Positions 13,033-63,424 of a stretch of 64,000 nucleotides of DNA are shown here, piece by piece (the first letter of the stretch is position 1; the number at the start of each line of letters is the position of its first letter). Both the position numbers and the translations under genes were made by a program. The stretch covers positions 521,486 to 585,485 of the forward strand of contig NZ_LMSO01000001.1 of assembly GCF_001428435.1 (NCBI RefSeq), read 5' to 3'. Below the pieces are notes generated by a model. That model did no database searches. It was not told the DNA's origin and worked only from the letters and a program-made list of their open reading frames with translations. The DNA is from Arthrobacter sp. Soil782 (GTDB lineage: Bacteria > Actinomycetota > Actinomycetes > Actinomycetales > Micrococcaceae).

Positions 13033-14640
13033 GTGCCACCGAAGAAGAAGGTCGACGCAACGCCGTCCACCATGAAGGAACTGAAGGACACGCTGTGGAA
13101 GGCGGCTGACAAGCTGCGCGGCTCAATGGATGCGTCCCAGTACAAGGACGTGATTCTGGGGCTGGTGTTCCTGAAGTATGTGTCGGACGCGTTCGAGGAG
13201 CGGCGGGGACAGATTGCTGCTGAACTGACGGCCGAGGGTTTCGATGAGTCGCAGATCGGGGACCTGCTCGACGACGTCGACGAGTACACCGGCCGTGGCG
13301 TCTTCTGGGTTCCGGCGGAGGCACGCTGGCAGTTCCTGGCCGAAAATGCGAAGGGGCTGCCGGCGTTTGACGGTGCTCCCGCGAAGTCGATCGGTCAGCT
13401 GATCGATGAGGCGATGGACGCCGTCATGACAGCCAACCCGTCGCTCGCTGCGACGCTGCCGAAGCTGTACAACCGGGACAATGTGGACCAGCGGCGGCTG
13501 GGCGAGCTGCTGGACCTGTTCAATTCGGCGCGGTTCACCGGGCAGGGCGCCACGAAGGCGCGGGACCTGCTCGGTGAGGTGTACGAGTACTTCCTCGAGA
13601 AGTTCGCCCGTGCCGAGGGCAAGCGGGGCGGGGAGTTCTACACACCGGCCGGCGTCGTGCGTGTGCTGGTGGAGGTGTTGGAGCCGGACCATGGCCGGGT
13701 GTATGACCCGTGCTGTGGTTCGGGCGGCATGTTTGTGCAGACGGAGAAGTTCCTGGAGTCGCACAAAAAAGAGGGCTCCAACATCTCCGTGTACGGGCAG
13801 GAGCTGAACGAGCGCACCTGGCGGATGGCGAAGATGAACCTTGCCATCCATGGGTTGAACGGAAATCTGGCGTCGCGGTGGGGTGACACGTTCGCGCGGG
13901 ATCAGCATCCCGATCTGCAGGCCGATTTCATCATGGCGAACCCACCGTTCAACATCAAGGACTGGGCGCGGTCGGAGAGCGACCCGCGCTGGAAGTTCGG
14001 CGTCCCGCCGGCCGGTAACGCGAACTATGCGTGGATTCAGCACATCATTTCGAAGCTGGCGCCGGGCGGCAGCGCGGGTGTGGTGATGGCGAATGGCTCG
14101 ATGTCGTCGAACTCAGGCGGTGAGGGTGATATTCGGGCGCAGCTTGTGGAGGCTGATCTGGTCTCCTGTATGGTGGCGTTGCCGACGCAGCTGTTCCGTT
14201 CGACCGGCATTCCCGTGTGCCTCTGGTTCTTTGCGAAGGACAAGAGTTCCGGTGCAGTTGACCGGTCAGGCGAGGTGCTGTTCATCGACGCGCGGAACCT
14301 GGGTTACATGGTCGATAGGGCCGAGCGTGCGCTGTCGGATGAGGACATCGCGAAGATTGCGAATGCGTACCACTCCTGGCGCGGGTCCCCTTCCGCTGTT
14401 TCATCCGGCCTTGAGTACGACGACGAGCCCGGCTTCTGCAAGTCCGTTTCGTTGGCGGAGATCAAGGCCGCGGATTACGCGTTGACGCCGGGCCGGTATG
14501 TCGGTGCGGCTGAGATCGCTGATGATGGCGAGCCGATCGAGGAGAAGATCGACCGGCTGAAGAAGGAGCTGTTCGAGCAGTTCGACGAGTCGGAGCGGTT
14601 AGCGGCTGTGGTGCGGGAGCAGTTGGGGAGGGTTTCGTGA
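13033..14640 (+). CDS. hsdM: Type I restriction-modification methylase subunit HsdM
   Basis: N6-adenine DNA methyltransferase of 535 residues, the modification subunit of a type I system. The N-terminal helical HsdM domain (about 15-170) is followed by the SAM-binding domain with motif I DPCCGSGG (225-232) and the catalytic NPPF (303-306). A helical C-terminus follows that normally contacts HsdS. The GTG start at 13033 is preceded by GGAAGG and AGGGCC. It lies 6 bp after the fusion gene, and its TGA overlaps the GTG of hsdS by 4 bp (GTGA). All catalytic motifs are intact, so the system is probably active in modification. Confidence 0.96.
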   Translation: MPPKKKVDATPSTMKELKDTLWKAADKLRGSMDASQYKDVILGLVFLKYVSDAFEERRGQIAAELTAEGFDESQIGDLLDDVDEYTGRGVFWVPAEARWQFLAENAKGLPAFDGAPAKSIGQLIDEAMDAVMTANPSLAATLPKLYNRDNVDQRRLGELLDLFNSARFTGQGATKARDLLGEVYEYFLEKFARAEGKRGGEFYTPAGVVRVLVEVLEPDHGRVYDPCCGSGGMFVQTEKFLESHKKEGSNISVYGQELNERTWRMAKMNLAIHGLNGNLASRWGDTFARDQHPDLQADFIMANPPFNIKDWARSESDPRWKFGVPPAGNANYAWIQHIISKLAPGGSAGVVMANGSMSSNSGGEGDIRAQLVEADLVSCMVALPTQLFRSTGIPVCLWFFAKDKSSGAVDRSGEVLFIDARNLGYMVDRAERALSDEDIAKIANAYHSWRGSPSAVSSGLEYDDEPGFCKSVSLAEIKAADYALTPGRYVGAAEIADDGEPIEEKIDRLKKELFEQFDESERLAAVVREQLGRVS

Positions 14641-15824
14641 GGACTATCCGCACGATCGAGGAAGTGTGCACCCAGATCGTCGATTGCGAGCACAAGACAG
14701 CGCCGCTTGACCCTGAGGGCGAATATTTCGCGGTTGGCACACCTGCCATGCGGGGAAACGCGATCAATTACGAAGAATCCCGGAGGATCTCGAAGGACAC
14801 GTTCATAAGATGGACCCGCAGAATGGCTCCGCAGCAGGGCGACCTCCTGTTTGCTCGCGAGGCTCCGGTAGGACCAATCGTGATGATTCCCGACACGGGC
14901 AACATCGCTCCGGGACAGCGCACAATGCTTTTGAGGCCAGACCCCGAGCAGATCGACAGCCGGTTTCTCTATTACCTGCTGACCTCTCCCAGACAGCAAG
15001 AACTACTTCTTTCCCAAGCATCCGGTTCCACGGTCGCCCACCTCAATGTTGCCGATGTTCGTGCGTTCGAGCTCCCCCCGTTGCCTTCCGTTGACGAACA
15101 ACGTGCTATCGCGGAGGTACTGGGCGCGCTCGACGACAAGATCGCCGCCAACACCAAGCTCGCGTCTACTTCCGCAGATCTCGCTGGCCTCATTTACGAC
15201 ACTGCTGTCTCGTCTCGAGAGACGCAACCGATGAGCCACGTACTCACGCCGATTCTAGGCGGGACCCCTCCACGGGCCAACCCTGCCTACTGGGAAGAGG
15301 AGTATCTTTGGGCATCCGCTCGGGACGTTACGTCGGCGCCCTTCGGCATGATCGTGGACACCGCCGAAAAGATATCGAACGCTGCGGCGACGACCACCAA
15401 GGCAAAGCCTCTTCCCCTCGGGAGTGTCATTCTTACCGCGCGTGGAACAGTAGGTGCAGTAGCCCGGCTAGCGGTCCCGTCGTCGTTCAATCAGTCATGC
15501 TACGGATTTGTACCGGATGCCTTACCGCCTGGAATTCTCTACTTTTCAATCCTTCGAGCGACGCAGCGAGCCAAGGCGATTGCGCACGGATCTGTATTTG
15601 ACACCATCACCATGAAAACGTTCGATCACCTTGATATTCCCGTCTTGTGCGAGACCTCGGTCGAGACGTTGGAGTCTAGGATTGGACCGCTTCTGGATGT
15701 CATTTCCGAAGCAGTCAAGGAGAACGCAACTCTCGCCAACACCCGGGATGCTCTCCTCCCTCAGCTCATGTCTGGCAGGCTACGAGTGAAGGATGTCGCC
15801 GACGTCGTCGGGAGTCTCGTGTGA
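14637..15824 (+). CDS. hsdS: Type I restriction-modification specificity subunit HsdS
   Basis: DNA-recognition subunit of 395 residues with two target-recognition domains, about 1-150 and 195-340. Each is followed by the conserved helical spacer (LPPLPSVDEQRAIAEVLGALDDKIAANTKL and the LPQLMSGRL end region). The PxxxEQxxIxxxLxxLDxKI pattern of HsdS is clear after the first TRD. The start GTG overlaps hsdM. The TRD parts have less biased, lower-GC codon use than the flanking genes, as expected for rapidly exchanged recognition modules. Its recognition sequence cannot be deduced here. Confidence 0.94.
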   Translation: MRTIRTIEEVCTQIVDCEHKTAPLDPEGEYFAVGTPAMRGNAINYEESRRISKDTFIRWTRRMAPQQGDLLFAREAPVGPIVMIPDTGNIAPGQRTMLLRPDPEQIDSRFLYYLLTSPRQQELLLSQASGSTVAHLNVADVRAFELPPLPSVDEQRAIAEVLGALDDKIAANTKLASTSADLAGLIYDTAVSSRETQPMSHVLTPILGGTPPRANPAYWEEEYLWASARDVTSAPFGMIVDTAEKISNAAATTTKAKPLPLGSVILTARGTVGAVARLAVPSSFNQSCYGFVPDALPPGILYFSILRATQRAKAIAHGSVFDTITMKTFDHLDIPVLCETSVETLESRIGPLLDVISEAVKENATLANTRDALLPQLMSGRLRVKDVADVVGSLV

Positions 15825-16001
15825 ATCCCTTCCAGCACAAAAACTGCCCGAAGGTGCAGGGTCTCGCCGGTTCGAAGCGGCGATCCTGCACCTGCGGGAC
15901 TTTTCTGAGCACTAAGTGGCCGTATATCCAACCCTGGAAGTGTCAGAACCGCGGGATAGCTTCGGAGAATCCACCGCGGATTCCTTCGAATGGAGACGCT
16001 C

Positions 16002-17105
16002 ATGACCGCCCCTGAGAACAACTCGACCAACACCGCTTCGGAAGCGCCGGCGTCCTTTCCGGCAACGCCCGCGCGAGCGACGATGCCCCACTGGTACCCG
16101 GAGCTACTTGACACCATCACCGGGCGCATTGCCGCCGGGCGCACGAAAGCGATCACGGCAGCTAATCAGGAGCTTGCAGCGACGTACTGGGACATCGGAC
16201 ACGAGATCCTTCAGCGACAGAACGCTGAAGGATGGGGCGCAAAGATCATCGCTCGGCTGTCGACTGACATGCGCGAGAAGTTCCCAGATGCCAAGGGCTT
16301 CTCGCCACGGAATCTCAAATATATGCGGACCTTCGCCGACAGCTGGACGCTAGAAGCAATTGTGCAAGCACCACTTGCACAATTGCCGTGGTACCACCAC
16401 GTCGCACTGCTTGAAAAGCTGGACCACCCTGACACGCGGCTTTGGTACGCCGGCAAGGCCGTCGAAGAAGGCTGGTCGCGGAACGTCCTTGTCCACCAGA
16501 TCGAGAGCCGCCTGTACGAGCGCTCCGGTAAGGCTGTCACCAACTTCAAGGCGACCCTGCCGCCGTCGGACTCGGATCTTGCCCAGCAGCTAACAAAGGA
16601 TCCGTACGTCTTCGACTTCGTCGCGATGACTGATCGGCGAAATGAGTCGGAGCTCCAACACCAACTGGTGCATCACGTTCAAAAGTTCCTGCTGGAGCTG
16701 GGCCAGGGTTTCGCCTTCGTAGGCGAACAGGTACGGCTGGTAATTGGGGGCGACGAGTTCTTTGCCGACCTGCTGTTCTACAACTTCAGGGTGCGCTCTT
16801 TCGTTGTAATCGAGCTCAAGGCTGGCAAATTTAACCCCAGCTACCTGGGTCAACTCGGCATGTACATGGCCGCCGTCGATGACCTGCTTGCGCACCCGGA
16901 CGACAAGCCCACGATCGGTCTACTGCTCTGCAAGGAGAAGAACAACGTCGTAGCCGAGTATGCGCTCCAGGGTTACTCAGCGCCGATTGGTGTGGCTGAA
17001 TGGGAAGCAGAGATCGTGGAGTCGCTTCCTGAAGAGTTCGCCTCGAGCCTGCCAAGCGTCGAACAACTGGAATCGGAATTGGCCGACGACGGTCCACCAG
17101 CATGA
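16002..17105 (+). CDS. DUF1016 / YhcG-type PD-(D/E)xK nuclease-domain protein
   Basis: A 367-residue protein of the DUF1016 (YhcG-like) family. The N-terminal DUF1016 helical domain (about 25-170: ITAANQELAATYWDIGHEI, LPWYHHVALLEKL) is followed by a PD-(D/E)xK-like nuclease fold. Its likely catalytic residues are Asp256 (FFADLLFY), Glu271 and Lys273 (IELKAGKF). I chose the ATG at 16002 because GGAG lies 6 nt before it; an in-frame ATG at 15990 overlaps that site. It sits between hsdS and hsdR on the same strand, 177 bp after hsdS and 16 bp before hsdR. DUF1016 genes are known neighbours of type I loci. An accessory nuclease or defence role is inferred. Confidence 0.88.
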   Translation: MTAPENNSTNTASEAPASFPATPARATMPHWYPELLDTITGRIAAGRTKAITAANQELAATYWDIGHEILQRQNAEGWGAKIIARLSTDMREKFPDAKGFSPRNLKYMRTFADSWTLEAIVQAPLAQLPWYHHVALLEKLDHPDTRLWYAGKAVEEGWSRNVLVHQIESRLYERSGKAVTNFKATLPPSDSDLAQQLTKDPYVFDFVAMTDRRNESELQHQLVHHVQKFLLELGQGFAFVGEQVRLVIGGDEFFADLLFYNFRVRSFVVIELKAGKFNPSYLGQLGMYMAAVDDLLAHPDDKPTIGLLLCKEKNNVVAEYALQGYSAPIGVAEWEAEIVESLPEEFASSLPSVEQLESELADDGPPA

Positions 17106-17121
17106 TCATCAGGGGGAACAG

Positions 17122-20100
17122 ATGACACTACAAACCAGCTACACCGAAGCCGACTGGGAGGGCCTCACCCTCGAGGTCCTCGCTGAACCGCTCGGCTGGG
17201 AACCGAAGGCCGGCGAATACATATCGCCCGGCTCCGGTGAACGGGATACCTGGGACGAACTGCTCATCCGCCCCCGCCTGCTCGACGCCCTGAGAAAGCT
17301 CAACCCCGACGTCCCCGCCGAGTACATCAAGCAGGCACTGGCTGACATCGCCTCCCCCAAGTCCCAGGACGCCCTCACCGAGAACCACCGCATCCACCGG
17401 TTCCTCGTCGAGGGCTACCGGCTCAGCTACATCGACGCCGACGGCACCGAGCAGAACCCCACGCTCCGCCTTCTCAGCTCCGAACCCGCCGATAACAACT
17501 GGCTCGCCGTCAACCAGGTCACCCTGCGGCAGGGCGATTACCGCCGGCGCCTTGATGTCGTCCTCTACTGCAACGGCATGCCCGTCAGCATCCTCGAACT
17601 CAAAAAAGCCGGCAGCGCCCACGCCGACGTTGGCGGCGCTCACGCCCAACTCCAGACCTACCTACGCGAATTCCCCATGGCGTTCCGGTTCTGCGTCTTC
17701 GCGCTCGTCTCGGACGGGATCATCGCCCGCTACGGCACCCCCTTCACCCCGTTCAACCACTTCTCCCCCTGGAACGTCGATGACGACGGCAACCTCATCA
17801 AGCCGGGACAGATCGTCGACGGCGAGCCGATGCAGCCGCTCGAAGCCGCGCTTCTCGGCCTCTACGAACAGCTCCGCTTCCTGCAACTGACGACGTCGTT
17901 CACCGCCTTCGATGAAGGATCCGACGGACTCTCGAAACGCATCGCCAAACCGCACCAGTACTTTGCCGTCACCAAAGCCGTCGGCAGCACCGTCCAGGCG
18001 GTCGAGAGCAACGGCAAGGCCGGCGTCGTCTGGCACACGCAGGGGTCCGGTAAGTCCATGGAGATGGAGCTCTACGCCAACCAGGTCGGCCGGCATCCAC
18101 GGCTGCGCAATCCCACCATTGTGGTCATCACCGACCGCAACGAACTCGACGGACAGCTGTACGAGACCTTCGCACGGAGCCTGCTGCTGCCCGGAACGCC
18201 GCAGCAGATCCGCAAACGCTCCGAACTGCGGGAAGAACTGAGCAACCGCACCACCGGCGGCATCTACTTCACCACCCTGCAGAAGTTCGGCCGCAGCAAG
18301 GACGAGCGCGACGCCGGCCACGACCACCCGCTGCTGTCCGACCGGCGCAACATCATCGTCGTCGTCGACGAGGCGCACCGCAGCCACTACGACGACCTCG
18401 ACGGCTACGCCCGCCACCTCCGCGACGCCCTGCCCAACGCCACACTCATCGCGTTCACCGGCACGCCGATCTCGTTCGAGGACCGCAATACCAAGGAGGT
18501 GTTCGGCGAGTACATCGACATCTATGACCTCTCCCGCGCGGTGGAGGACGGAGCCACCGTGCCGGTCTACTTCGAGCCGCGGCTGATCAAGGTCAACCTC
18601 GCTGAGTCCGTAACGCAGGAGGACCTGAACCTCGCCGCCGATGAAGCAACCCGCGGCCTCGACGATACGGAGCGTGCGCGCCTTGAGCAGAGTGTCGCCG
18701 TCGTCAATGCGGTGTATGGGGCGCCGGAGCGGATCAAGTCGCTCGCCGCGGACCTGGTGGCTCATTGGGAGGACCGGCGGACGCAGATGACCAAGTTCAT
18801 CGACAAGCCGGGCAAGGCGTTGATCGTCGGCGCAACCAGGGAGATTTGCGCGAACCTGTATTCGGCAATCGTGGCGCTGCGGCCGGACTGGCACTCGGAT
18901 GATCTCGATAAGGGCCGCATTAAGGTCGTCTACTCGGGCGATGCCACCGACGGACCGCCCGTCAGCAACCACGTCCGCCGCGACAGCGCCAACGCGTCCA
19001 TCAAGGAGCGGCTCAAGAACGTCGACGATGAGCTGGAGCTGGTGATCGTCAAGGACATGATGCTCACCGGCTACGACTCACCGCCCCTGCACACCCTGTA
19101 CCTGGACCGGCCGCTGAAGGGTGCGCTGCTGATGCAGACGCTCGCCCGCGTGAACCGCACGTTCCGCGGCAAGCAGGACGGCCTGCTGGTGGCCTACGCG
19201 CCCTTGGCAGACAACCTGGCCAAGGCGCTGGCCGAGTACACCGACACCGATCAGGCACGGAAGCCGATCGGCAAGAACATCGACGAGGCGGTGGGGATCG
19301 CTACCGACCTGGTGCAGGAGTTGCGCACCTTGCTCGCCGGCTACGACTGGAAAGCGGTCCTGCACCGCGGCGGCCCAAGGGCCTTCCTGAACGCAGTCAG
19401 CGGTGCGGCAAATTATCTGCGTGACCCCGGCACCCCCGGCAACAAGCCCGACGACGACGGCGAAACGCTTGCTGACCGGTACCGTCGCATTTCGGGACAG
19501 TTGGCGCGGGCATACGCGCTCTGTTCCGGACGGCTCGTGGAACTGCGGCCGGAGATCCAGGTGTACGAAGAGATCCGGGTCTGGATGGCGAAGTTCGACG
19601 CCGAGGACAGGCAGTCGCGTGGCGAACCGATCCCGGCCGAGATCCAGCGCATGCTCAACGAGCTGATTGCGACGGCCACCGCCTCGGGTGAAGTTGTAGA
19701 CATCTACGAGGCGGCCGGAATGCCGAAGCCGTCGCTGGATGACCTGACGCCGGAATTCGTTGCGGCAACGCGGCACGCGCGGAATCCGCAGCTGGCCATT
19801 GAGGCGTTGCGGAAGACGCTCGTTGAGGAGTCGACCCGGGTTGCGCGCAACAACGTGGTGCGGCAGCGGGCGTTCGCGGAGCGGATCGCCGAGCTGATGA
19901 ACAAGTACACCAATCAGCAGCTCACTTCAGCAGAAGTCATCGCGGAACTGGTCGAAATGGCCAAGGAAGTAGCGGCAGAGTCGAAACGCGGTGAGCGCTT
20001 TTCACCTCCATTGAATGACGACGAACTCGCTTTCTACGATGCCGTCTCGCAGAACGAGTCGGCGGTGCTGGAGCAGGGCGACGATGTGCTGGCTCGAATC

Positions 20101-20304
20101 GCGCGGGACCTCGTTGAGGTGATGCGGCGGGATGTGCGGACGGACTGGACGGTACGTGATGATGTCCGGGCCAAGCTGCGGTCCTCCATCAAACGGCTTC
20201 TCGTCAAGAACGGGTATCCGCCGGACAAGCAACCGGGTGCGATCAAGCTGGTGATGGAGCAGATGGAGTCGATGGCGCCGAGGTTTGCGGAGGCGCGGGG
20301 GTAA
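17122..20304 (+). CDS. hsdR: Type I restriction enzyme subunit HsdR
   Basis: Restriction and translocation subunit of 1060 residues. The N-terminal nuclease domain has Asp145, Glu159 and Lys161 (RRLDVVLYC, ILELKKA). A superfamily 2 motor follows, with Walker A TQGSGKS (306-312), DEAH (416-419) and AFTGTPIS. Later helicase motifs (VVYSGDA, DMMLTGYDSPPLHTLYLD, LARVNRTF) are intact. The ATG at 17122 has AGGGGGAA upstream; the frame extends further into the DUF1016 gene but this is unlikely. With hsdM and hsdS it completes the type I system: HsdR cuts DNA lacking the methylation set by HsdM/HsdS. Confidence 0.96.
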   Translation: MTLQTSYTEADWEGLTLEVLAEPLGWEPKAGEYISPGSGERDTWDELLIRPRLLDALRKLNPDVPAEYIKQALADIASPKSQDALTENHRIHRFLVEGYRLSYIDADGTEQNPTLRLLSSEPADNNWLAVNQVTLRQGDYRRRLDVVLYCNGMPVSILELKKAGSAHADVGGAHAQLQTYLREFPMAFRFCVFALVSDGIIARYGTPFTPFNHFSPWNVDDDGNLIKPGQIVDGEPMQPLEAALLGLYEQLRFLQLTTSFTAFDEGSDGLSKRIAKPHQYFAVTKAVGSTVQAVESNGKAGVVWHTQGSGKSMEMELYANQVGRHPRLRNPTIVVITDRNELDGQLYETFARSLLLPGTPQQIRKRSELREELSNRTTGGIYFTTLQKFGRSKDERDAGHDHPLLSDRRNIIVVVDEAHRSHYDDLDGYARHLRDALPNATLIAFTGTPISFEDRNTKEVFGEYIDIYDLSRAVEDGATVPVYFEPRLIKVNLAESVTQEDLNLAADEATRGLDDTERARLEQSVAVVNAVYGAPERIKSLAADLVAHWEDRRTQMTKFIDKPGKALIVGATREICANLYSAIVALRPDWHSDDLDKGRIKVVYSGDATDGPPVSNHVRRDSANASIKERLKNVDDELELVIVKDMMLTGYDSPPLHTLYLDRPLKGALLMQTLARVNRTFRGKQDGLLVAYAPLADNLAKALAEYTDTDQARKPIGKNIDEAVGIATDLVQELRTLLAGYDWKAVLHRGGPRAFLNAVSGAANYLRDPGTPGNKPDDDGETLADRYRRISGQLARAYALCSGRLVELRPEIQVYEEIRVWMAKFDAEDRQSRGEPIPAEIQRMLNELIATATASGEVVDIYEAAGMPKPSLDDLTPEFVAATRHARNPQLAIEALRKTLVEESTRVARNNVVRQRAFAERIAELMNKYTNQQLTSAEVIAELVEMAKEVAAESKRGERFSPPLNDDELAFYDAVSQNESAVLEQGDDVLARIARDLVEVMRRDVRTDWTVRDDVRAKLRSSIKRLLVKNGYPPDKQPGAIKLVMEQMESMAPRFAEARG

Positions 20305-53269: not shown

Positions 53270-55026
53270 GCGACTCTTCCTCCCCTACACCTTCGCGTGA
53301 ACCCACCGGCCTCCGCCGCGGCCTCACGAGCTACGGGGACGCCGAGTTCTCGCTGTTCCTCCGGAAGGCATTCATCAAGGGCGCCGGGTATTCGGATGAT
53401 GCGCTGGACCGGACCGTCGTCGGGATCGTGAACACCGGCAGCGGTTACAACCCGTGTCACGGCAACATGCCGGCGCTGGTAGAGGCCGTGAAGCGCGGCG
53501 TGATGCTGGCCGGTGGGCTGCCGGTGGAGTTCCCGACCATCTCGGTGCACGAGAGCTTCTCCTCCCCCACCAGCATGTTCCTGCGGAACCTGATGTCTAT
53601 GGACACGGAGGAGATGATCCGCGCGCAGCCGATGGACGCCGTCGTGCTCATCGGCGGGTGTGACAAGACGGTGCCGGCGCAGCTGATGGGTGCGGCGTCG
53701 GCCGGAGTGCCGGCGATTTCGCTGGTCACCGGGTCGATGCTGACCGGCGGGTACCGCGGCGAGCGGGTCGGTGCGTGTACGGATTGCCGGGCGTTCTGGG
53801 GCAAGTTCCGTGCGCAGGAGATCTCAAAACCAGAGATCGACGACGTGAACTCGCGTCTGGTGGGCAGCGTCGGCACCTGTTCGGTGATGGGCACGGCGAG
53901 CACCATGGCGTGTATCGCCGAGGCGATGGGGATTGCCTTGCCGGGGTCTGCGTCGGCGCCGGCGGTGACGGCGGACCGGGTGCGGATCGCTGAGGCTACC
54001 GGGACGCAGGCTGTGGCGCTGGCCGCTGGCGGGATTGCGCCGTCGTCCATCCTGACGCCGGAGGCCTTCGAGAACGGGCTGCGGATGCTGCTGGCGATCG
54101 GCGGTTCGACGAACGCGATCATCCACCTGACCGCTGTGGCCGGGCGGCTTGGCATCAAGCTGTCGCTGGATGAGCTGGACCGCATGAGCGCCGAGACGCC
54201 GGTGCTGGTGGACCTGAAGCCGTCGGGCAAGTACTACATGGAGGACTTCCACCGTGCCGGCGGTGTACCCGCGGTGCTGCGTGAACTGGGTTCGCTGATC
54301 AATCGCGACGTCATGACTGTCACCGGCCGCACGCTGGGTGAAGAGATCGACGACGCCGGTCCCGGCTTCCCGCAGGACATCATCCGGCCGCTGTCTGACC
54401 CGATCTACCCGCAGGGCAGCCTCGCGGTGCTGCGCGGGAACCTGGCTCCGGGTGGCGCGATCATCAAGCAGGCGGCGGTGTCGCCGGCGTTGCTGGAGCA
54501 TTCCGGGCCCGCTGTGGTGTTCGAGAATGCGGCGGACCTGGCGGCGCGGATCGACGATCCGTCCCTCGACGTCACGGCCGATTCAGTGCTGGTGCTGAAG
54601 AACATCGGTCCGGTGGGCAACCCCGGTATGCCGGAGGCCGGCTATCTGCCGATCCCCAAGAAAATCGCAGCCCAGGGTGTGAAGGACATGGTGCGGATCT
54701 CGGATGGCCGGATGTCCGGGACGGCGGCTGGTGCGGTGGTGTTGCATGTGACACCCGAGTCAGCGGTTGGTGGGCCGCTGAGGCTGGTGCGGACGGGTGA
54801 CACGATCACGTTGAGTGTGAGCCGGCGGTTGGTGCAGCTTGAGGTTTCTGACGAGGAGCTCGAGCGGCGTGAATCGGAGCTCGGGCCGGCGTCGCCGACG
54901 ATCCCGGACCGTGGCTACTGGCGCCTCTACGTCCAAGAGGTGACTCAAGCGGACGAGGGCTGTGACTTCCGTTTTCTCCAGGCTTCAGGAGAAACGCCCA
55001 TGACGCCAATCCGATCGTATTGCTAG
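53266..55026 (+). CDS. IlvD/Edd-family dehydratase (sugar-acid or dihydroxy-acid type)
   Basis: A 586-residue [Fe-S]-dependent dehydratase of the IlvD/Edd family. Cluster cysteines are Cys64 (YNPCHGNM), Cys132 (GGCDKT) and Cys205 (GTCSVMGTAST). The extra ACTDCRAFWG segment and the overall pattern are closer to sugar-acid (arabonate/xylonate-type) dehydratases than to biosynthetic IlvD, judged by eye. It would form a 2-keto-3-deoxy acid from an aldonic acid. It is the last gene of the operon; no clear terminator follows. Confidence 0.88.
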   Translation: MSDSSSPTPSREPTGLRRGLTSYGDAEFSLFLRKAFIKGAGYSDDALDRTVVGIVNTGSGYNPCHGNMPALVEAVKRGVMLAGGLPVEFPTISVHESFSSPTSMFLRNLMSMDTEEMIRAQPMDAVVLIGGCDKTVPAQLMGAASAGVPAISLVTGSMLTGGYRGERVGACTDCRAFWGKFRAQEISKPEIDDVNSRLVGSVGTCSVMGTASTMACIAEAMGIALPGSASAPAVTADRVRIAEATGTQAVALAAGGIAPSSILTPEAFENGLRMLLAIGGSTNAIIHLTAVAGRLGIKLSLDELDRMSAETPVLVDLKPSGKYYMEDFHRAGGVPAVLRELGSLINRDVMTVTGRTLGEEIDDAGPGFPQDIIRPLSDPIYPQGSLAVLRGNLAPGGAIIKQAAVSPALLEHSGPAVVFENAADLAARIDDPSLDVTADSVLVLKNIGPVGNPGMPEAGYLPIPKKIAAQGVKDMVRISDGRMSGTAAGAVVLHVTPESAVGGPLRLVRTGDTITLSVSRRLVQLEVSDEELERRESELGPASPTIPDRGYWRLYVQEVTQADEGCDFRFLQASGETPMTPIRSYC

Positions 55027-55047
55027 GCCAATCTGCCTTTCTGTGAT

Positions 55048-56006
55048 CCCCCGTTAGTTGACGTAGCATTCCGTTATCGGCACTTTACGATGCCGAGTTG
55101 CATCTGCTGCGCGAACTCGACACCCTCTGAGATTAACCGCTGTTTCCGCTGATTTCAGCCTTCGAGGAGCCGGACGGGTGGGATCGCGTCAAGTGTTTGC
55201 GGCTGGATGAAATGGTTCCTGACCAGAGCGTTTGTATTTGATCAATCATCTAATGAATGATTTGGGCACCTGTCAGTGTTGAGCCGTGGCGCTTCGCGCG
55301 CATCAGCACCCCTACGCCGCCGGTGAATTCTGTTGTGTGAAATTTCGGAGCCCGAGCCGCCTCAATGAACCCCCACCGACGATGAAGTTCGATGGAAGCG
55401 CTATTGGAGGGGTTGACTACATACCAGGCGTCCATGGAGCGGTGCCAGATCCATTCCAACCGGGCCTGGGTTAGGGCGATCCCAATGCCTCGGCGTCTCA
55501 GGTTGGGCGTCACGGTTACCCCACCCAAGTAGTGACCGGCAGGGGCAGGCCCGTCGGCGTAGTGCCAGAAATGGGTCTTACCCCAGCCGACAACGCTTCC
55601 GTCCAGAACGGCGACAACGACCAATCGAGTGACATCGTCAATTGCTGGGGCAAGAGCTTCGGCATCAATAGAAGATCCGTCAGCTTCGACCTGCAGCTTG
55701 AGTATCGGAAGGATGTCGTTCTTGACCGCAGGACGAACTCCCACCGCACCCGCCCACGTGCTGCTTAGGCCCTGGTTTGGTGAACAGTCAGCAAATCCAG
55801 CGTCGCTCACTTATCTCTGCCACCCCATCCAACTGCCGAACCTGGCCTTCACCATGGACCACAGTACTGATTTGCCCCTGCGGATGACCGTGCACCCGAC
55901 ACCGTTGAACACGACGTGTTGCCGGTAAGCCGCCGGAAACATTGATTGACCTATCTGGCCTTGGTCTTCATTGCCGGTAGATGCCTTTGCATAACCCCCG
56001 TTAGTT
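55048..56006. repeat. Direct repeat pair CCCCCGTTAGTT flanking the GNAT gene
   Basis: The exact 12-mer CCCCCGTTAGTT occurs at 55048-55059 and 55995-56006, each preceded by TGCCTTT at about the same distance. A TGCTAGGCCA 10-mer also appears near both ends (55021-55030 and about 56020-56029). The pair brackets the GNAT gene and may mark a duplication or recombination junction at the edge of the accessory region. Confidence 0.45.
55250..55810 (-). CDS. GNAT-family N-acetyltransferase
   Basis: A GNAT protein of up to 186 residues. The acetyl-CoA-binding motif A (GGVTVTPNLRRRGIGIALTQARLEW) and motif B (NPSNSASIELHRRWGF) are clear. The substrate is unknown. The start is a GTG at 55810; an in-frame GTG at 55744 would begin closer to the conserved domain. 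It stands alone in a loosely packed region between the catabolic operon and the accessory genes, bracketed by the 12-bp direct repeats. Confidence 0.85.
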   Translation of the reverse strand: MSDAGFADCSPNQGLSSTWAGAVGVRPAVKNDILPILKLQVEADGSSIDAEALAPAIDDVTRLVVVAVLDGSVVGWGKTHFWHYADGPAPAGHYLGGVTVTPNLRRRGIGIALTQARLEWIWHRSMDAWYVVNPSNSASIELHRRWGFIEAARAPKFHTTEFTGGVGVLMRAKRHGSTLTGAQIIH

Positions 56007-56115
56007 TGGCAGAATGAATGTGCTAGGCCATCGCGGTGGTACTAGAAGTGAACCTCGGGAGATCCTGCCGGACGACAGGGCCTGAGGTTTTGCGTTTTAA
56101 CTACGTTTCCGCGTT
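55811..56115. other. Intergenic region without a supported gene
   Basis: About 305 bp between the GNAT start and the DUF3800 end. It holds the second copy of the CCCCCGTTAGTT repeat (55995) and presumably the GNAT promoter. No open frame with a ribosome site or family similarity was seen. Confidence 0.5.
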
Positions 56116-56688
56116 TCAAGCGTCAAGGCTGATGATGTCCAGTTTGGCGCTTAGCAGCTCCACGTAGACCATGTTCCCGGTCCTTGCTTGGGACAAGGCT
56201 CCGCAAAAAATATCGGGTACCCAGAGGAGAGGTTCGGCTTTTCCTGCTAGATGGTCAACGCGGAATGATCCAGTGATCTGCTTGCGTGCTTTAAGGGAGT
56301 CCAGATGCGTTCTGTCGCGGCGATCATCGGCGGGCCCCCTGGATTCAAAAACGGCGTTCCGCACACCATTCTGTTGCAATTCGTAGTACATCCGCTCGCC
56401 GCATAGGCGTCGCCGGCGCTCGTCCTTTTCACCCGGTAGTCCGTTGCGAACGACTATGAGGCCTAGGCCTTCAAGCCTGGCTACCTCATTGACGAGCTTG
56501 AGTCGACGTCGTTCGTCTTCGTCATGCCAATGAACCTTTGTCTGGCCGGGCAGCAGAAGGCTTTGCATTGCTGCCGAGGCTTTCAGCGCGGCTTCGGAAT
56601 TGTAGATTGCGGCGCCCAACATGTACGTGTTTGGGTCTAGGGATCGGTGGGATCCTGACTCGTCGATGAACGCAGAGAGGTCACTCAC
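56116..56688 (-). CDS. DUF3800 domain-containing protein
   Basis: A 190-residue DUF3800 protein. The family hallmark FIDESGSH near the N-terminus and the later Asp in WVPDIFCGA are present; by resemblance to RNase-H-like folds they may form an acidic metal site. The GTG start at 56688 has AGGAGG 7 nt upstream. The family is common in mobile and phage-linked regions and has no settled function. It is 70 bp downstream of the winged-helix gene on the same strand, so the two are probably co-transcribed. Confidence 0.82.
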   Translation of the reverse strand: MSDLSAFIDESGSHRSLDPNTYMLGAAIYNSEAALKASAAMQSLLLPGQTKVHWHDEDERRRLKLVNEVARLEGLGLIVVRNGLPGEKDERRRRLCGERMYYELQQNGVRNAVFESRGPADDRRDRTHLDSLKARKQITGSFRVDHLAGKAEPLLWVPDIFCGALSQARTGNMVYVELLSAKLDIISLDA

Positions 56689-56758
56689 TGCACGCCTCCT
56701 GAAAGTGCAGCGTGCCGCGGCTCGAGCCAGTGTTGGAAGGTTGTAGGTCCTGCCGGCT

Positions 56759-57637
56759 TCATTTCTTCGGGTCTTCCTGGTTCATGGGCGTTCGTGTTCG
56801 TGATCGGCTGTACTTGTTCACTAAGGCGTTGATTTGGTCTTGCCCGAAGGGTCCGGCGAGGTTGTATTCGTTGACAGTGGTTAGTCCTGTGGGGCTTAGA
56901 GGGGCTTTCTTCACCCTCTCGGTTATGGACAGGACGTGAAGCTCTTGAAGACGTTTGAAGCCCCGTTCGGCAGTGTCGGCCGACCATCCGTACCAGAAAG
57001 GTACTTTTTCAGCGGGTAGTTGGAACCCCGGTTTTTCGTGCAGGGCGACGAGAAGCATGGCGGTTGCGGGTAGATCGAGGTCTTTGTACCAACCCTCGGT
57101 CCAGAAAATGTGGGGGAGGCGGAAGAACCTGTCTTCGTTGTTTAATCCAGGCCGCTGGTAGGCCTTCCCTGATCCATCTTCACGCAGCAGGGTTACACGC
57201 ACATTGCGTTCGCGTCCCTTGCGGGCGCGGGTGATTAGCTGTCTGTCCTCTAACCGGGTGAGGATTTTGCTGGCCGCGTTAGATGCTGATGCCGCGGTTG
57301 CTGTTGCGGTTGTGTCGAATGCTCTTGCCCATACTTGTATCGGCAGGGTAGTACTCCAGCCGTCATGAGCGTCGCTGCTGATGATGCCGTAGAGCAGCAA
57401 TTGTGCGCGAAGTCCTCTTAGGTCTCCTTTTCGGACGAACTCACTAAGAGGTCCATGGCGACTGTCTCGACCGGGGGGAGCTTGGACGAAAACCTTACCG
57501 ATAGGGGCGAAAGGCCGGTTCGATCGCTCCAGAAGAGCTGCCCGCGTCTCATCTTCGGTTGCCGCTTCGGTAGGTCGTTCCTCGTGTTTCACACCTTGAT
57601 TATGCGGGAGGCCGATGTTCTCTGGCAAACGCACCAC
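56759..57637 (-). CDS. Winged-helix replication-initiator-like or regulatory protein
   Basis: A protein of up to 292 residues. Two helix-rich segments resemble winged-helix units: about 70-150 (LRGLRAQLLLYGIISSDA, SNAASKILTRLEDRQLITRARKG) and about 170-260 (LPATAMLLVALHEKP, SADTAERGFKRLQELHVL). The duplicated layout recalls plasmid-type replication initiators or phage regulators, but the match is weak. The start is uncertain (GTG at 57637 or 57592). It precedes the DUF3800 gene on the same strand. I do not recognise it with confidence. Confidence 0.65.
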   Translation of the reverse strand: MVRLPENIGLPHNQGVKHEERPTEAATEDETRAALLERSNRPFAPIGKVFVQAPPGRDSRHGPLSEFVRKGDLRGLRAQLLLYGIISSDAHDGWSTTLPIQVWARAFDTTATATAASASNAASKILTRLEDRQLITRARKGRERNVRVTLLREDGSGKAYQRPGLNNEDRFFRLPHIFWTEGWYKDLDLPATAMLLVALHEKPGFQLPAEKVPFWYGWSADTAERGFKRLQELHVLSITERVKKAPLSPTGLTTVNEYNLAGPFGQDQINALVNKYSRSRTRTPMNQEDPKK

Positions 57638-58160
57638 TGTGTCTTTAAATGGCGCTCCAGCGGGTGTTATGGAAGATCAATGCGATATCCACTGCGAGAC
57701 CCATGTAAACCCTTGTTAGAGCCATAGCCCAGTGGCGCTCCGGCCCTTCTCCTTTGACGCGTGATCACCGCTGGTAACTCCCCTTCAGGGCAGGCAGACT
57801 TCCGATGGACTGCAGGGCCTTGGGAGGTAAACATAGGTAGGAGCTCAAAGCCTTCCAAAGCGGCACTGTCCAAAGCTGGTCCGAAGCTTGCATCTGACTC
57901 GTCGAGCAAGGCTACGAAGTCCAAGGCAGGATCGACGGTTGGAAAGGGCTAACGTTCCGGGAGGCCCGTTTGGAGGCGGGAGTCGGGCGTTCCTACTCGC
58001 GCCCCATCGGAAGCAGCGGTTGGGTACACCCATATGTGCCAGGCAGTGCCAGCAAGTTTCGCGATGCGTTAGGGTCGGTTCCGGTCTTTGCAATGGATGT
58101 GTGCAGAGGTCTAGATAGAAGGCATCAGGAATCAGGCATCAGGCAGCTGCGGAGGCGTCA
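57638..58160. other. 523-bp region without a supported gene
   Basis: Several open frames cross this stretch but none has a ribosome site, sensible composition or a recognisable family. It lies between the winged-helix gene and the broken recombinase and probably contains the winged-helix promoter plus decayed mobile-element sequence. Confidence 0.45.
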
Positions 58161-58771
58161 TCATTCCCTGGGAAGCGTGGCGATCCATTGCTGTGCGTCG
58201 AGGTTGGTGATTCGCCGGTACAGGGTGGCTCTGGACATGCCGAGGTCGCGAGCGACGTGGGATGCGGGTTGGCTTTGTTCGATGAGTCGGCGGGCGTTGG
58301 CGATTTGGCTGTCGCTGAAGATCGGTCGTCGGCCGCCGAGGTCGAGGCCTGCGGTGGCGTTTGGTGTTGGAGCCGTTGACGCGTTCGCGTTTGATCTCGA
58401 GCTCCATCTGCGCGAGGGCGGCCATGACGATGAAGACCATGGATCCCATGGGTGTGCCGGTGTCGACGTTCCCGCCGCCGAGGTTCAGGACGCGCAGGTT
58501 CACCTTTTGCGCCCGGAATCCGTCGGCCAGGGCAAGCATGTTGGCAGTGGAGCGGCCGAGGCGATCGAGGGTGGTGACTATCAGGGTGTCGCCTTCATGG
58601 AGCGCGTCGAGGGCTTTGTCGAACTGGGGCCGCCGCGCATGGGCACCGCTGACGCCGTGGTCGATGTAAAGGTCATCGCGGCGGACATCGGCGGCGAGTA
58701 GATTAGCGAACTTACCGGTCGGGGTCCTGGGCACGAGTGGATACCCGCGCGTACCCGATGAGCTTGCCCAT
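58161..58771 (-). pseudogene. Serine recombinase (resolvase/invertase family), frameshifted
   Basis: Three frames together encode a resolvase-type recombinase. The first (ATG at 58771) gives MGKLIGYARVSTRAQDPDR with the catalytic Ser, then stops. A second frame continues with NLLAADVRRDDLYIDHGVSG, DRLGRSTANMLALADG and GSMVFIVMAALAQMELEI. A third frame supplies the C-terminal HTH (PIFSDSQIANARRLIEQ, ASHVARDLGMSRATLYRRI). The shifts fall near 58720 and near 58355. At least two frameshifts mean it is not functional as read, unless the sequence has errors. It marks past mobility in this accessory region. Confidence 0.85.
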
Positions 58772-59133
58772 GCGGCTCCTCTATGTCGATTGGTCCCCAT
58801 AACTGTCTCGCAACCTACTTCTCGGTCACGAAGGGATACCCCTACTTAGGAGACAGGGTAGCAAGACATAGAGGGAGTAGTAGTGGCGGGGGAGTCGTGT
58901 TGTCTCGTCCTAGTGTGTTGCAACTCTAAGCTTGAAAGACACTACTCATTGTTCCGTGTATGGCCCTCACCGCGCACAGGCCATCGGGTGAATCTTTGGC
59001 TGGTCTAAGCAGGTGCTATCGCCGCGTCCGCTTATAAAGATGAGGCTTGCGGCCCGGCTCGTTGCAGGATCGAGACGCGTGACTCCATCTCGGATGTGCT
59101 GACGAGAGCGCTACGAACGAATAGCATCGCAAC
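58772..59133. other. 362-bp region without a supported gene
   Basis: The stretch between the recombinase remnant and the large REase-PIN gene shows no plausible coding frame. It is less GC-rich than the surroundings and must carry the promoter of the gene at 59134. No convincing -35/-10 pair was picked out. Confidence 0.45.
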
Positions 59134-61320
59134 ATGTCCTCCCGCTTTCGCCTTGCACTGGAACAGCTACCGTCAACCGACTGGCGTTCTTTCGAAACGC
59201 TCGCCCTGCAGTTCCTCGCCGCAGAGTACCCGATGCTTCGCAGCACTGCTTCACAAGCCGGCGACGGCGGCAGGGACGGTGAGTTGTTTAGCCCCGAAGG
59301 TATGCCGGATACCGGTTTCCAGTTTTCCGTGCGCAAAGATTGGGCGGCCAAAATCGGGGAAACCCGGCAGCGCCTTGCGAAAACCTTCCCGGAGATACGA
59401 AGAATTATCTACGTGACCAACCAGGAGATTGGCGCCAGCGCAGATAAGTTGCGAGCCGAAGTATGGGACGAGCACAAAGTCCTCATTGACGTACTGGACA
59501 TTTCATACTTCCTCGACCGGCAGAACCGCGACTCACAACGCAGGGCCGCTGCCGAGGAGCTCGCGGCCAAGATTGTCGACCCGTTCTTGTCCAAGCGAGG
59601 GGTCGCTAACACGGTGACCGACGCATTGGAACCAGAGGAAGGGAAACTCGCTCTCCTTCATCTAACCCTGAGCAGGCGGGATGGTGAGGGGGGACAGAAT
59701 CTTACGAAAAGCTGCTTCGATTCTCTCGTGCTATCCACATTGCACGGCTCCACCTCAGAGAATGTGCGAGCTAAAGAAGAAATCGTGGACGAGCTGTCCG
59801 CTATAGTAACGGGCCCTAGCTATCAGATTCAGGCCCTTGTAGATAGTGCTCTTGGTCGACTAAGCGTGAAGAACGGTCCTGTCATGTTCAACCGCAGTCG
59901 CGGCGGGTATCACATCGCGTTCCAGGAGTCGCTCCGGCTAAATGAGGAGACAGCGAACTTTCTTCTAGGCGAGAATGCGCTCGAAGACGATCTTTTGGCC
60001 GGGCTCTACGGCCTGGATGAGCGCCTCGACCAGGACGCAACCAAGGCTCGGGCCGAGGCGAACCGTCTCAAGCATGCATTAGAGATGATTCTAATGAAAC
60101 GAGGAGAATCCTTCGCGGACGCGATCAGCAGCGGTGAAGTACTTCATCTAGATGCTCACGAGATCGGTGTTGATCTTGACAATATCGGACATAAGGGAGC
60201 GCTAACTCAGCCGCATGCCGCCATCGCGATCCTTCGAGTGCTAGAGGGTGCTTCTGCTGAAGCCCGCGACCATCTGCGTCGTATCATCGACGCATACACG
60301 CTGCTGGCCTTCCTCCGGGTAACGCCGGATGTGCAAAAAACGATGTCGAGGATATTTTCCGACGCTGACATCTGGCTGGATACGTCCGCAGTTCTTCCGC
60401 TCTTGGGGGAAATACTGCTTGAGGATAGTGAAGAGCGCCATTACACCAACCTCCTCGCCGCGGCGCGAGCCACTGGCATGAACTTGTTCATAACAGATGG
60501 AGTGGTAGAGGAAGTTGCAAGCCACCTGAAGCGATGCGAGGGCGTATCGAACAGGGTTCATCGCGGTGACCCCATCGAAGGCCAGCTCCCGTTCATCTAC
60601 GCGATTTATGTAGTATCAGGACGAGACACCCGCGAGTTCGGAGATTGGCTCTTAGAGATCCGGGGTAGTCAGCGCCCTGAGGAAGATGTGCGGACTTATT
60701 TGAAGGAAGTTTTCGGGATTGAGAGAAAGAGTCTTCGGGAGTTTTCGGACAACGCGAACCCAGACCTGCGCGCTGCGGTGCAGGAACTTTGGTATCCAAC
60801 GCACGACAGGCGCCGTGACCTCGATCAGGGAACGAAGGCTCGATTGGTCGCTCACGACGTTGAGAACACAGTCGGGGTCATTGAGGTACGCAGACAAAGC
60901 CCGGATTCACCGATGGGATATCGGGCTTGGTGGCTCACGCTTGATCGGACTGCGTTCAGACTCAAGAAGCACCTCATCAGCTTCCTTGGAGAGGATGCCC
61001 CTGCATCCCCAGCACTGAGTCCAGACTTCTTGTTGCAACTCCTACGTCTCCGTCCGCTGCCTGCGGGTGTGGAGGCCCGCACCTTGCCGCCCATCGTGGC
61101 GCAACTTGCGAGGTTCCGTGGTTCGGCGCAGGAAGTCCTGAACGCAGCCGATCAAATTCGCCAGAAGCACGCCGGAATGAGCGAGCGTCTCATACGGCGA
61201 GAAGTGCGTGACGGTCTGGACACGCTCCGGGGATCGTTCACCCCCGATGCTGAGATCACTCCGATGGCCCTTGAAGAGCGGCTGAAGTCTGACTTGGAGA
61301 CGCAACGCTCTGCTTTGTGA
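59134..61320 (+). CDS. Mrr-like PD-(D/E)xK / PIN-like fusion protein, putative defence nuclease
   Basis: A 728-residue protein I cannot assign to a named family. Residues about 1-110 look like an Mrr-type restriction-endonuclease domain: Glu21 (FETLALQFL), Asp-containing GDGGRDGE (43-50) and the QxxxK element QFSVRK (63-68). The middle (about 120-400) is helical. Residues about 405-520 look like a PIN-type nuclease fold, with Asp416 in IWLDTSAVLPLL and Asp455/Glu459 in FITDGVVEEVASHL. The C-terminus is helical and charged. Codon use is looser than in the flanking sugar genes. With a broken recombinase upstream, an acquired anti-phage role is inferred, not shown. Confidence 0.7.
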   Translation: MSSRFRLALEQLPSTDWRSFETLALQFLAAEYPMLRSTASQAGDGGRDGELFSPEGMPDTGFQFSVRKDWAAKIGETRQRLAKTFPEIRRIIYVTNQEIGASADKLRAEVWDEHKVLIDVLDISYFLDRQNRDSQRRAAAEELAAKIVDPFLSKRGVANTVTDALEPEEGKLALLHLTLSRRDGEGGQNLTKSCFDSLVLSTLHGSTSENVRAKEEIVDELSAIVTGPSYQIQALVDSALGRLSVKNGPVMFNRSRGGYHIAFQESLRLNEETANFLLGENALEDDLLAGLYGLDERLDQDATKARAEANRLKHALEMILMKRGESFADAISSGEVLHLDAHEIGVDLDNIGHKGALTQPHAAIAILRVLEGASAEARDHLRRIIDAYTLLAFLRVTPDVQKTMSRIFSDADIWLDTSAVLPLLGEILLEDSEERHYTNLLAAARATGMNLFITDGVVEEVASHLKRCEGVSNRVHRGDPIEGQLPFIYAIYVVSGRDTREFGDWLLEIRGSQRPEEDVRTYLKEVFGIERKSLREFSDNANPDLRAAVQELWYPTHDRRRDLDQGTKARLVAHDVENTVGVIEVRRQSPDSPMGYRAWWLTLDRTAFRLKKHLISFLGEDAPASPALSPDFLLQLLRLRPLPAGVEARTLPPIVAQLARFRGSAQEVLNAADQIRQKHAGMSERLIRREVRDGLDTLRGSFTPDAEITPMALEERLKSDLETQRSAL

Positions 61321-61535
61321 CAAGCCAGGACGTATGTCCTGATCAGCGAGCTCTGGTCATCGACCGGGCTATGAAGGTGTTGACCGCTGCCGACGCCTTG
61401 CAGGCCCGCCGATGGGCCCTGGCTGCGCCGACCGTAAGTGCCCGATGTTTCGGATGGGCAACGTCTAACGGGACTGTCTCGTACTTTGTCTTGTATCCCA
61501 TGGGTTACGAGATCCTTCTGGCTCGAAAGTCTTAG
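61317..61535 (+). CDS. Possible 72-residue ORF coupled to the REase-PIN gene
   Basis: A short frame whose GTG start overlaps the TGA of the large gene (GTGA), the same kind of junction seen in real operons here. It encodes 72 residues (for example VLYPMGYEILLARKS at the end) with no recognised motif. No independent ribosome site was found. It could be a small partner protein or chance. Confidence 0.25.
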   Translation: MTSQDVCPDQRALVIDRAMKVLTAADALQARRWALAAPTVSARCFGWATSNGTVSYFVLYPMGYEILLARKS

Positions 61536-61804
61536 CAGCTGGGATACCGAGACGGAACACCGTCAGATATCCTTTCCAGCCGAGCATGGTCCCGACCCGC
61601 GAATTCGGACTCGCTGGGAACTGAAGTCGACCTCCGGCGAAAGACCCTTTCGAGGGCTAAGCAGGCGTCTCGTCAGCAGATACTTCCCTGTAACCGGGAC
61701 CTGAACCTCATTGTTCGAGCGGCTCCTTGCGTAGCCTTTGGTACGGCGGATCGCTACATCCGTCGCCTAGACAGTCGCTGCGCGCCCCGAAGAGAGGACC
61801 CACA
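61536..61804. other. Upstream region of the second alpha-glucosidase
   Basis: About 270 bp with no supported gene. The LacI-type AAGCGCTT operator seen at the first glucosidase locus is absent here, so this paralogue is probably regulated differently. Confidence 0.45.
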
Positions 61805-63424
61805 ATGACGTTCACGGAGTCGCACTCAGCGAGCCATCCGGAGCCACAGAGCCCCCTCTGGTGGCAGGACGCCGTCATCTATCAGGTCTACCCGCGCTCC
61901 TTCGGCGACGGCGACGGCGACGGTGTCGGTGACCTCGCCGGGCTGCTGACCCGCCTGCCCTACATCGCATCGCTCGGCGTGGATGGCATCTGGATGACAC
62001 CGTTCCAGCCGTCCCCGCAGGTTGACCAGGGCTACGACGTCAGCGACTACTGCGGCGTCGATCCGCTGTTCGGCACCATGGGGCAGTTCGACCAACTGCT
62101 GGACGCCGCCCACACGCTCGGGCTCCGCATCTTTCTCGACGTGGTGCCCAACCACTGCTCCTCCGAGCATCCCCTGTTCCAGGCCGCGGTCGCCGCCGGC
62201 CCCGGTTCCCCGGAGCGGGCGATGTTCCACTTCGGCAACGGGCCCGACGGCGACACCCCGCCGAACAACTGGCAGAGCGTCTTCGGCGGCAGCGCCTGGC
62301 ACCGCGTGAACCCCGGCTCCGACACCGACACCGAGTGGTACCTGCACCTCTTCTCCCCACAGCAACCGGACTGGAACTGGCGCAACCCCGCAGTGGGCGA
62401 CTACTTCGAGGACGTACTCCGGTTCTGGTTCGACATGGGCGTGGACGGGCTCCGCATCGATGTCGCACACGCTCTCTTCAAGGCCGACGGGCTCCCCGAC
62501 GCCGCCAACGCCAACTCCGTGGTCGACGGCCTGCGCTCCAACCCCCAGGTGTCCGACCAGGAGGAGGTCCACGAGGTGTACCGGCGATGGCGTCGCGTCG
62601 CCGACTCCTACTCCCCCGGACGCGTGCTCGTCGGCGAGGTCAACCTCGATCCCCGCCGCGCCGCCCGCTACACTCGCCACGACGAGATGCACCAGGCGTT
62701 CGCCTTCGCCTTCGTGAAACTCGGCTGGGACGCCGACGCGTGGGCAGCGGTCGGCACCGAACTGGAAGCCGCCCGCCGGGAACACGGGGCGCCACCGAGC
62801 TGGGCACTCGAAAACCACGACATCGTCCGCTCCGCCACACGCTTCGGCAGAGGCGACCGCGGTTTCCTCCGCGCACGAGCCGGCCTGCTGGCCATCCTCG
62901 GCCTCCCCGGCGGCGCGTTCATCTACCAGGGTCAGGAACTCAACCTGCCCGAGGTCGACGTGCCGCTCGACGCCCGGGTGGACCCGATGTGGGCGCGCGG
63001 TGGAGTGTCCCGCGACGGCGCCCGCGTCCCGCTGCCCTGGACCGTCACACCGGCCAACACCTTCGGTTTCTCGTCCGACGGAGCGGCCGAACCATGGCTG
63101 CCGACCCCGGCGGACTGGGGCACGCGGTCCGTGGAAGCGAACCTGCAGGACGAGAACTCCACCCTGCACCTGACCATCGAGGCCCTCAAACTGCGGAAGC
63201 AGTTGACCGAGAAGGAAATACTTTCACCCGGCGACGGCGGCACCTGGCGGGTCGACGACGGCGGTCTGCTCACCTGCCAGCGAGGCGAACAGTTCCTCGT
63301 CGCCGTCGCCATGGGTGATGAGCCCGCACGGCTGCCCGATGGACAGGTAGTACTGACGTCCTCACCGCTTACCGCCGAGGGGTTACTCCCACCCGACGCT
63401 GCGGCCTGGGTTCTCCTACGCTGA
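61805..63424 (+). CDS. GH13 alpha-glucosidase, paralogue
   Basis: Cytoplasmic GH13 alpha-glucosidase of 539 residues. The start ATG at 61805 has GAGAGGA upstream; the frame continues upstream without support. The barrel signature DAVIYQVYPRSFGDGDGDGVGDL is present. Catalytic Asp219 (LRIDVAHALFK), Glu278 (LVGEVNLD) and Asp339 (ENHDIVRS) are intact. It closely resembles the enzyme at 1063-2751 (shared YDV-DYC-VDP-FGT pattern), so it is probably a paralogue acting on a different alpha-glucoside. It is a single transcription unit without a visible transporter. Confidence 0.93.
   Translation: MTFTESHSASHPEPQSPLWWQDAVIYQVYPRSFGDGDGDGVGDLAGLLTRLPYIASLGVDGIWMTPFQPSPQVDQGYDVSDYCGVDPLFGTMGQFDQLLDAAHTLGLRIFLDVVPNHCSSEHPLFQAAVAAGPGSPERAMFHFGNGPDGDTPPNNWQSVFGGSAWHRVNPGSDTDTEWYLHLFSPQQPDWNWRNPAVGDYFEDVLRFWFDMGVDGLRIDVAHALFKADGLPDAANANSVVDGLRSNPQVSDQEEVHEVYRRWRRVADSYSPGRVLVGEVNLDPRRAARYTRHDEMHQAFAFAFVKLGWDADAWAAVGTELEAARREHGAPPSWALENHDIVRSATRFGRGDRGFLRARAGLLAILGLPGGAFIYQGQELNLPEVDVPLDARVDPMWARGGVSRDGARVPLPWTVTPANTFGFSSDGAAEPWLPTPADWGTRSVEANLQDENSTLHLTIEALKLRKQLTEKEILSPGDGGTWRVDDGGLLTCQRGEQFLVAVAMGDEPARLPDGQVVLTSSPLTAEGLLPPDAAAWVLLR

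Follow-up and report, generated by a model that had tools for sequence, protein, structure and literature searches.

A mobile bacterial gene family predicted to join PD-(D/E)xK and PIN nuclease folds in one protein, and its possible role in immunity

Our analysis concerns a 64,000-nucleotide stretch of the Arthrobacter sp. Soil782 genome (contig NZ_LMSO01000001.1, positions 521,486 to 585,485; the window from here on) and, near one end of it, an intact open reading frame (ORF) of 728 codons whose product is predicted to carry two different nuclease folds in a single chain (Table 1). A sequence-only reading of the window had called by eye an Mrr-like PD-(D/E)xK N-terminus, marked by the motifs GDGGRDGE and QFSVRK, and a later PIN-like segment containing FITDGVVEE; the motifs are all present in the ORF, and structure prediction recovered both folds, so that the call of the domain architecture is supported by the models. 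In the AlphaFold model of the 728-residue protein (mean predicted local distance difference test score, pLDDT, 85), the N-terminal region adopts the conserved fold of the PD-(D/E)xK superfamily, its best structural match being the effector domain of Avs4, and the restriction enzymes EcoT38I, FokI and MspJI are also among the matches to this region. The later segment is modelled as a PIN fold of the VapC/HARP group, with the three to four conserved acidic residues expected of it, and is closest to RNA-free RNase P (HARP) and the VapC toxins VapC4 and VapBC15. Foldseek on its own found nothing at E<=1e-3, either with a first model against the PDB or with a second against BFVD. Searching the PDB by sequence alone, with the whole protein, with two alignments and with pieces covering two domains, returned nothing meaningful.

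Table 1. Features of the gene, of its surroundings in the window and of two related copies. Locations are window positions unless a record is named; GC3 is the GC content of third codon positions; REase, restriction endonuclease; wHTH, winged helix-turn-helix.
Feature	Location	Strand	Basis or remark
REase-wHTH-PIN gene (predicted domains), 728 aa, single-gene unit	59134..61320	+	ORF, family searches, structure models
Predicted PD-(D/E)xK nuclease fold, residues 1-150	59134..59583	+	conserved E21, D44, D48, Q63, S65, K73
Predicted winged helix, residues 190-273	59701..59952	+	
Predicted helical middle, residues 280-410	59971..60363	+	secondary structure of model; Walker A in 0/253 members
Predicted PIN nuclease fold with helical insertion (about 480-565), residues 410-643	60361..61062	+	conserved D416, E460, D518, D575, D604
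Predicted C-terminal helices, residues 654-727	61093..61314	+	conserved R689, R692, D693
Low-GC3 segment between dehydratase-like and alpha-glucosidase-like genes (names by eye)	54980..61726		homology break, GC3, comparison with genome G256
Truncated serine recombinase, one side of segment	58132..58800	-	Resolvase PF00239 E 4e-27, profile 35-136 of 145; context, no action on gene implied
Type I restriction-modification system: methylase 13033-14640, specificity 14637-15824, restriction subunit 16960-20304	13033-20304	+	about 39 kb from gene, in other GC dip
PDC-S02 candidate defence gene inside type I system	15990-17105	+	
Same gene with short flanks in the contigs of L009 and L010	L046 1540-4210; L045 9781-12450		91.5% over 2.67 kb

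The residues of both predicted active centres are strictly conserved. In an alignment of 253 full-length family members, 22 columns are invariant (D44, G46, Q63, S65, K73, D122, D416, E460, H464, D518, D575, R586 and ten others), while E21 is found in all 250 members that have a letter at that position, and D48 and D604 in 252 of the 253 each. Within the catalytic D...(E/Q)xK pattern, D44 and Q63 are present in every member and D48 in all except one, but the lysine position is occupied by a serine (S65) throughout. K73, which is invariant and lies near the beginning of the following helix, is a likely substitute for this lysine, and the corresponding Q-x-S-x7-K pattern occurs in all 253 proteins; catalytic lysines are known to migrate within the PD-(D/E)xK superfamily. 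On the PIN side of the model, D416 follows the first strand, E460 lies early in the next long helix, D575 is within a helix 115 residues further on, and D604 comes after the strand with the motif WWLT. These four residues would make up the expected PIN acid set, and the order of their positions is the usual one for PIN domains.

Family searches covered about 5.8 billion proteins (E<=1e-3, about 8,000 scored candidates each) and gave 84 matches in a first search, 188 with a member from an enterobacterial plasmid as query (120 listed) and 216 with residues 375-640 (120 listed). In total, 291 family proteins were collected; counts were made on the 253 with at least 700 residues, whose median identity to the window protein is 0.37, and the 38 shorter ones were excluded. 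The names of their sources include Paenarthrobacter, Kribbella, Demequina, Propionibacterium, Marinobacter, Aeromonas, Pantoea, Pseudomonas, Nitrospira, Acidobacteriota, Magnetococcales and Desulfobaculum. The sequence-only reading could name no existing system with this architecture, and the family is indeed without a name in the libraries scanned: all matches in Pfam and NCBIfam fell well short of the cut-offs, PHROGs had none at 1e-3, and those in PADLOC were partial. A literature search, which reached few subscription journals and no bioRxiv, found no description of the architecture in titles or the openings of abstracts, and we consider it new within the multidomain nuclease defence proteins. 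Several other identities were considered and set aside. A match to magnesium chelatase (NCBIfam, E 0.007) falls well short of the cut-off of that family. Domain swapping was looked for with residues 375-640, and none of the 120 proteins listed from the 216 matches exceeds 798 residues. Ten short matches examined (nine from this search and P0079) resemble versions of this protein cut short at the N- or C-terminus, although a natural form without the REase part may occur. Source names that hinted at other domains, 'TIR domain' for P0123 and 'KAP NTPase' for P0024, belong to sequences with ordinary family motifs, and P0239 ('predicted kinase') contains the four scripted family patterns (by pattern match only).

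The distribution of the gene is patchy. With the Soil782 genome included, it was found in 4 of 395 genomes sampled from the family, 3 of 394 from the class, 3 of 396 from the order and 2 of 396 from the phylum; these samples overlap and hold six other genomes with the gene in all. A DNA search with the plasmid gene found it in 5 of 5,426 E. coli genomes, always on plasmids. Ten of 72,556 plasmids match, eight of them over at least 80% of the query. A single lineage, at 99% or above, accounts for nine of these plasmids, eight with the full gene and one with a truncated form. Two queries gave no match among 50,697 phage records. Five IMG/VR viral contigs carry the gene; of two further single-protein scans of viral contigs, one was empty and the other returned only loci L009 and L010 again. 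The L009 and L010 copies are 94% identical, and an alignment of the stretches around them (13,980 and 20,802 bases) extends over no more than 2,673 columns, at 91.5%. From this alignment, the gene seems to have moved alone, in a single-gene transfer between phage types. At a further locus, L001, it adjoins a conjugative coupling protein gene, and L023 contains a phage-type integrase with a relative in L022. The gene is also lost by truncation, as seen from C-terminal remnants beside restriction-modification genes on two plasmids (L018 10076-10741 and L016 10292-10735).

In the window, the gene has a GC3 of 0.62, compared to 0.84-0.87 in three flanking genes (dehydratase-, acyl-CoA dehydrogenase- and glucosidase-like, all named by eye), in agreement with the looser codon use that had been noticed from the sequence; the other four genes measured in the low-GC3 segment range from 0.58 to 0.70. 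Overall GC per 2 kb falls to 0.56-0.59 (windows starting at 55001-60001) from 0.65-0.69 on both sides, with another dip, to 0.585, at 15-17 kb. The dehydratase-like gene occurs in 17 of 38 genomes of the genus, Soil782 included, and homology to the window ends at 54974-55000 in all eight relatives compared, three of whose stretches reach a contig end about 0.4-4.3 kb past the break. Genome G256 has the same two flanking genes in the same order on one contig, where they enclose about 14 kb of other genes. The drop in GC3, the homology break in eight relatives and the different content of G256 indicate that the segment was probably acquired. The proposal that the gene itself is an acquired one is supported by its patchy presence, its low GC3 and the copies found on plasmids, in viral contigs and beside the conjugative coupling protein gene.

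The description of this region as recombinase-bordered holds for one side only, where the truncated serine recombinase lies, and no convincing flanking repeats marking an element were found. The start region of the recombinase (58710-58941) is 85% identical to a stretch of genome G193 (L036 6075-6305) about 3.4 kb past the dehydratase-like gene; this place may have gathered recombinase remnants more than once, as far as these sequences tell. The same segment contains a DUF3800-like ORF (E 0.03) paired with a winged-helix-like ORF (56116-57637, minus strand). The pair had been cited as context for the gene, but neither ORF is common to other loci and a link was dropped. Elsewhere in the window, a second glucosidase-like gene (1069-2682, minus strand) is 50% identical to the one at 61805-63424.

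The neighbourhoods of other family members are diverse. In L010, the gene has a tail collar fibre gene on one side and a block of convergent tail genes on the other, a position that probably corresponds to the P2 Z/fun locus. On the same contig, a gpA-type gene (PF05840) and the portal gene are no more than 2 kb apart, an arrangement also seen in P2. The L012 copy adjoins a phrog_52 tail gene, that of L013 comes after terminase and portal genes, from which a single predicted ORF separates it, and that of L009 is near a lambda J-like tail fibre gene; gene content suggests that L012 and L013 are P2-like as well. In the enterobacterial plasmid lineage, the gene adjoins that of a TrlF ATPase, which matches PADLOC Ppl (E 6.9e-35), and at one locus of this lineage (L015) Tmn (E 0) is encoded about 6 kb away. 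Of the plasmid remnants mentioned above, that in L016 (Gordonia) adjoins a type II restriction pair and that in L018 type III genes. Upstream of the L014 plasmid copy, by 127 bases, lies a gene of 146 codons (11422-11862, plus strand) with no Pfam or PADLOC match, and the plasmid region with the Ppl-like TrlF also encodes a 269-residue protein (L014 18250-19059, plus strand) with a HEPN_RiboL-PSP match at E 3.7e-5, below the cut-off. The L019 and L020 copies have 92% identity; the two loci have in common a short divergent upstream ORF (L020 around 8282-8737, minus strand; 61% over 97 residues) that is absent from the other loci compared. When neighbouring ORFs of at least 70 residues from 17 loci were clustered (E 1e-6, coverage 40%), no genes were common across lineages except transporter, LacI/LacZ-type, integrase and phage genes.

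The explanation that we favour, with some reserve, is that the gene moves horizontally and by itself encodes a complete immune effector with two nucleases, acting against phages or other invading DNA. It is our best reading because the two-nuclease chain is conserved, has no NTPase motif and no common partner, and is found in viral contigs, plasmids and chromosomes. In this model, both nucleases would be kept silent by the winged helix and the helical middle until the protein senses a phage-made molecule or nucleic-acid structure; the PIN domain would then cut RNA, most likely tRNA, and stop translation, while the REase domain would cut DNA, and the infected cell would be arrested or killed, or the phage genome destroyed. 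The choice of tRNA is a guess from the HARP-like shape of the model and the helical insertion before the third acid. In its most specific form, for which our confidence is only tentative, a PD-(D/E)xK DNase with the Q-x-S-x7-K signature and a HARP-like tRNase would both be live and both be fired on infection without an NTPase, guide, cyclic nucleotide or partner protein. The sequence-only reading had likewise proposed a defence or abortive-infection effector, and this remains plausible: a defence-like context is seen in the enterobacterial plasmid lineage, through Ppl and, in L015, Tmn, and is suggested by the P2-type prophage loci L010, L012 and L013. Other observations weigh against a defence role. 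The 50 ORFs neighbouring the gene at seven actinobacterial loci (the window, L001 and L019-L023) match nine PADLOC families at 1e-5, with one member each and no clear defence system, and the neighbours in L019 and L020 look metabolic; an earlier scan had covered 74 ORFs (72 of 183 listed and two others) and listed 25 of 58 matching PADLOC families. The control, 30 other ORFs from the window, was itself not free of defence genes, as it included the type I restriction-modification system and the PDC-S02 candidate. Given these generic neighbours and this control, enrichment of defence genes around the family is not demonstrated.

The same observations can be read in other ways. The gene could be restriction-like and destroy incoming DNA directly, the REase being the working part and the PIN domain a sensor of nucleic acids or a regulator. 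The similarity of the REase region to EcoT38I, FokI and MspJI and the plasmid-borne remnants next to restriction genes of types II and III are in line with this, but the PIN acids are as well conserved in the 253 members as the REase residues, which argues for an active PIN enzyme, and no methylase is common across loci; we regard such a role as unlikely. A PIN fold close to VapC4 and VapBC15, carried by plasmids and viral contigs and once found beside a conjugative coupling protein gene, might instead belong to a toxin or maintenance gene of mobile elements, exerting VapC-like toxicity in the service of the element rather than of the host. We hold this to be distinctly unlikely, since across 12 loci no antitoxin-sized ORF within 700 bp is common across lineages, save for the short divergent ORF of the closely related L019/L020 pair, and the 146-codon upstream gene is restricted to the enterobacterial lineage. 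A nucleic-acid processing or repair function with no part in defence would fit the surroundings of the actinobacterial copies, in particular those of L019 and L020, and HARPs are RNA-processing enzymes (PMC8266387). This is improbable in view of the patchy presence, the low GC3 in the window, the plasmid location and the 2.7-kb unit common to otherwise different prophage stretches.

If the most specific form of the effector model, with both nucleases live, is correct, the family would represent a new design of bacterial immune effector, in which one gene hits DNA and translation together. Many known defence effectors rely for sensing on an NTPase, an Argonaute or a signalling enzyme that accompanies a single catalytic domain. 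A simpler route to a fail-safe immune effector would be shown by a one-gene family that is widespread and has two nuclease centres, both strictly conserved.

Among known systems, Avs4, an antiviral STAND NTPase, is related to the family through its N-terminal effector domain, the best match of the PD-(D/E)xK fold. It differs in that the proteins described here have a second nuclease fold where an NTPase would be expected: no NTPase family is above cut-off in Pfam or NCBIfam and none of the 253 members has a Walker A motif, and on these counts the family lacks the STAND NTPase that, with sensor repeats, defines Avs proteins. The REase associated with short Argonautes (PADLOC PDLC02416) matches 9 of 38 members scanned, with a best E of 6.7e-8, and LmuA (PDLC03852) matches 2 of the 38 (best E 1.1e-4); the PADLOC match of the window protein reaches only E 0.0058 and is confined to the N-terminal domain (residues 17-142). 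In contrast to both systems, no partner gene is common across lineages at the 17 loci, and no short prokaryotic Argonaute domain from Pfam is found in the 38 members. The PADLOC REase model had no match in the Soil782 genome, in a search whose control also matched nowhere. P2-like phages have a defence hotspot between gpA and the portal gene gpQ, according to Rousset et al. (2022, PMC9122126). The L013 copy, just past the portal gene, is on the portal side of this hotspot, the site of single-gene systems such as tin/old and a DUF4238 protein; gpA was not found in the L013 record, which is a fragment and leaves the gpA-gpQ interval unproved there, and the L010 copy is in the tail region, outside that interval. 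The domains of the hotspot systems are also different. VapC toxins resemble the PIN part, but the protein is much larger, has 115 residues between E460 and D575, and has no common antitoxin-sized ORF beside it: ORFs of at least 30 residues within 700 bp were common only to the pairs L009/L010 and L019/L020, in a comparison that non-homologous antitoxins would escape. HARP, the prokaryotic protein-only RNase P of the PIN_5 cluster in the VapC group, has itself been linked to toxin-antitoxin nucleases (PMC8266387). Its likeness to our protein is one of predicted fold only: HARP needs D7, D138, D142 and D161, whereas D575 is followed by E577 (in 233 of the 253 members) rather than by an acid four residues on, and the PIN domain described here sits within a 728-residue multidomain protein.
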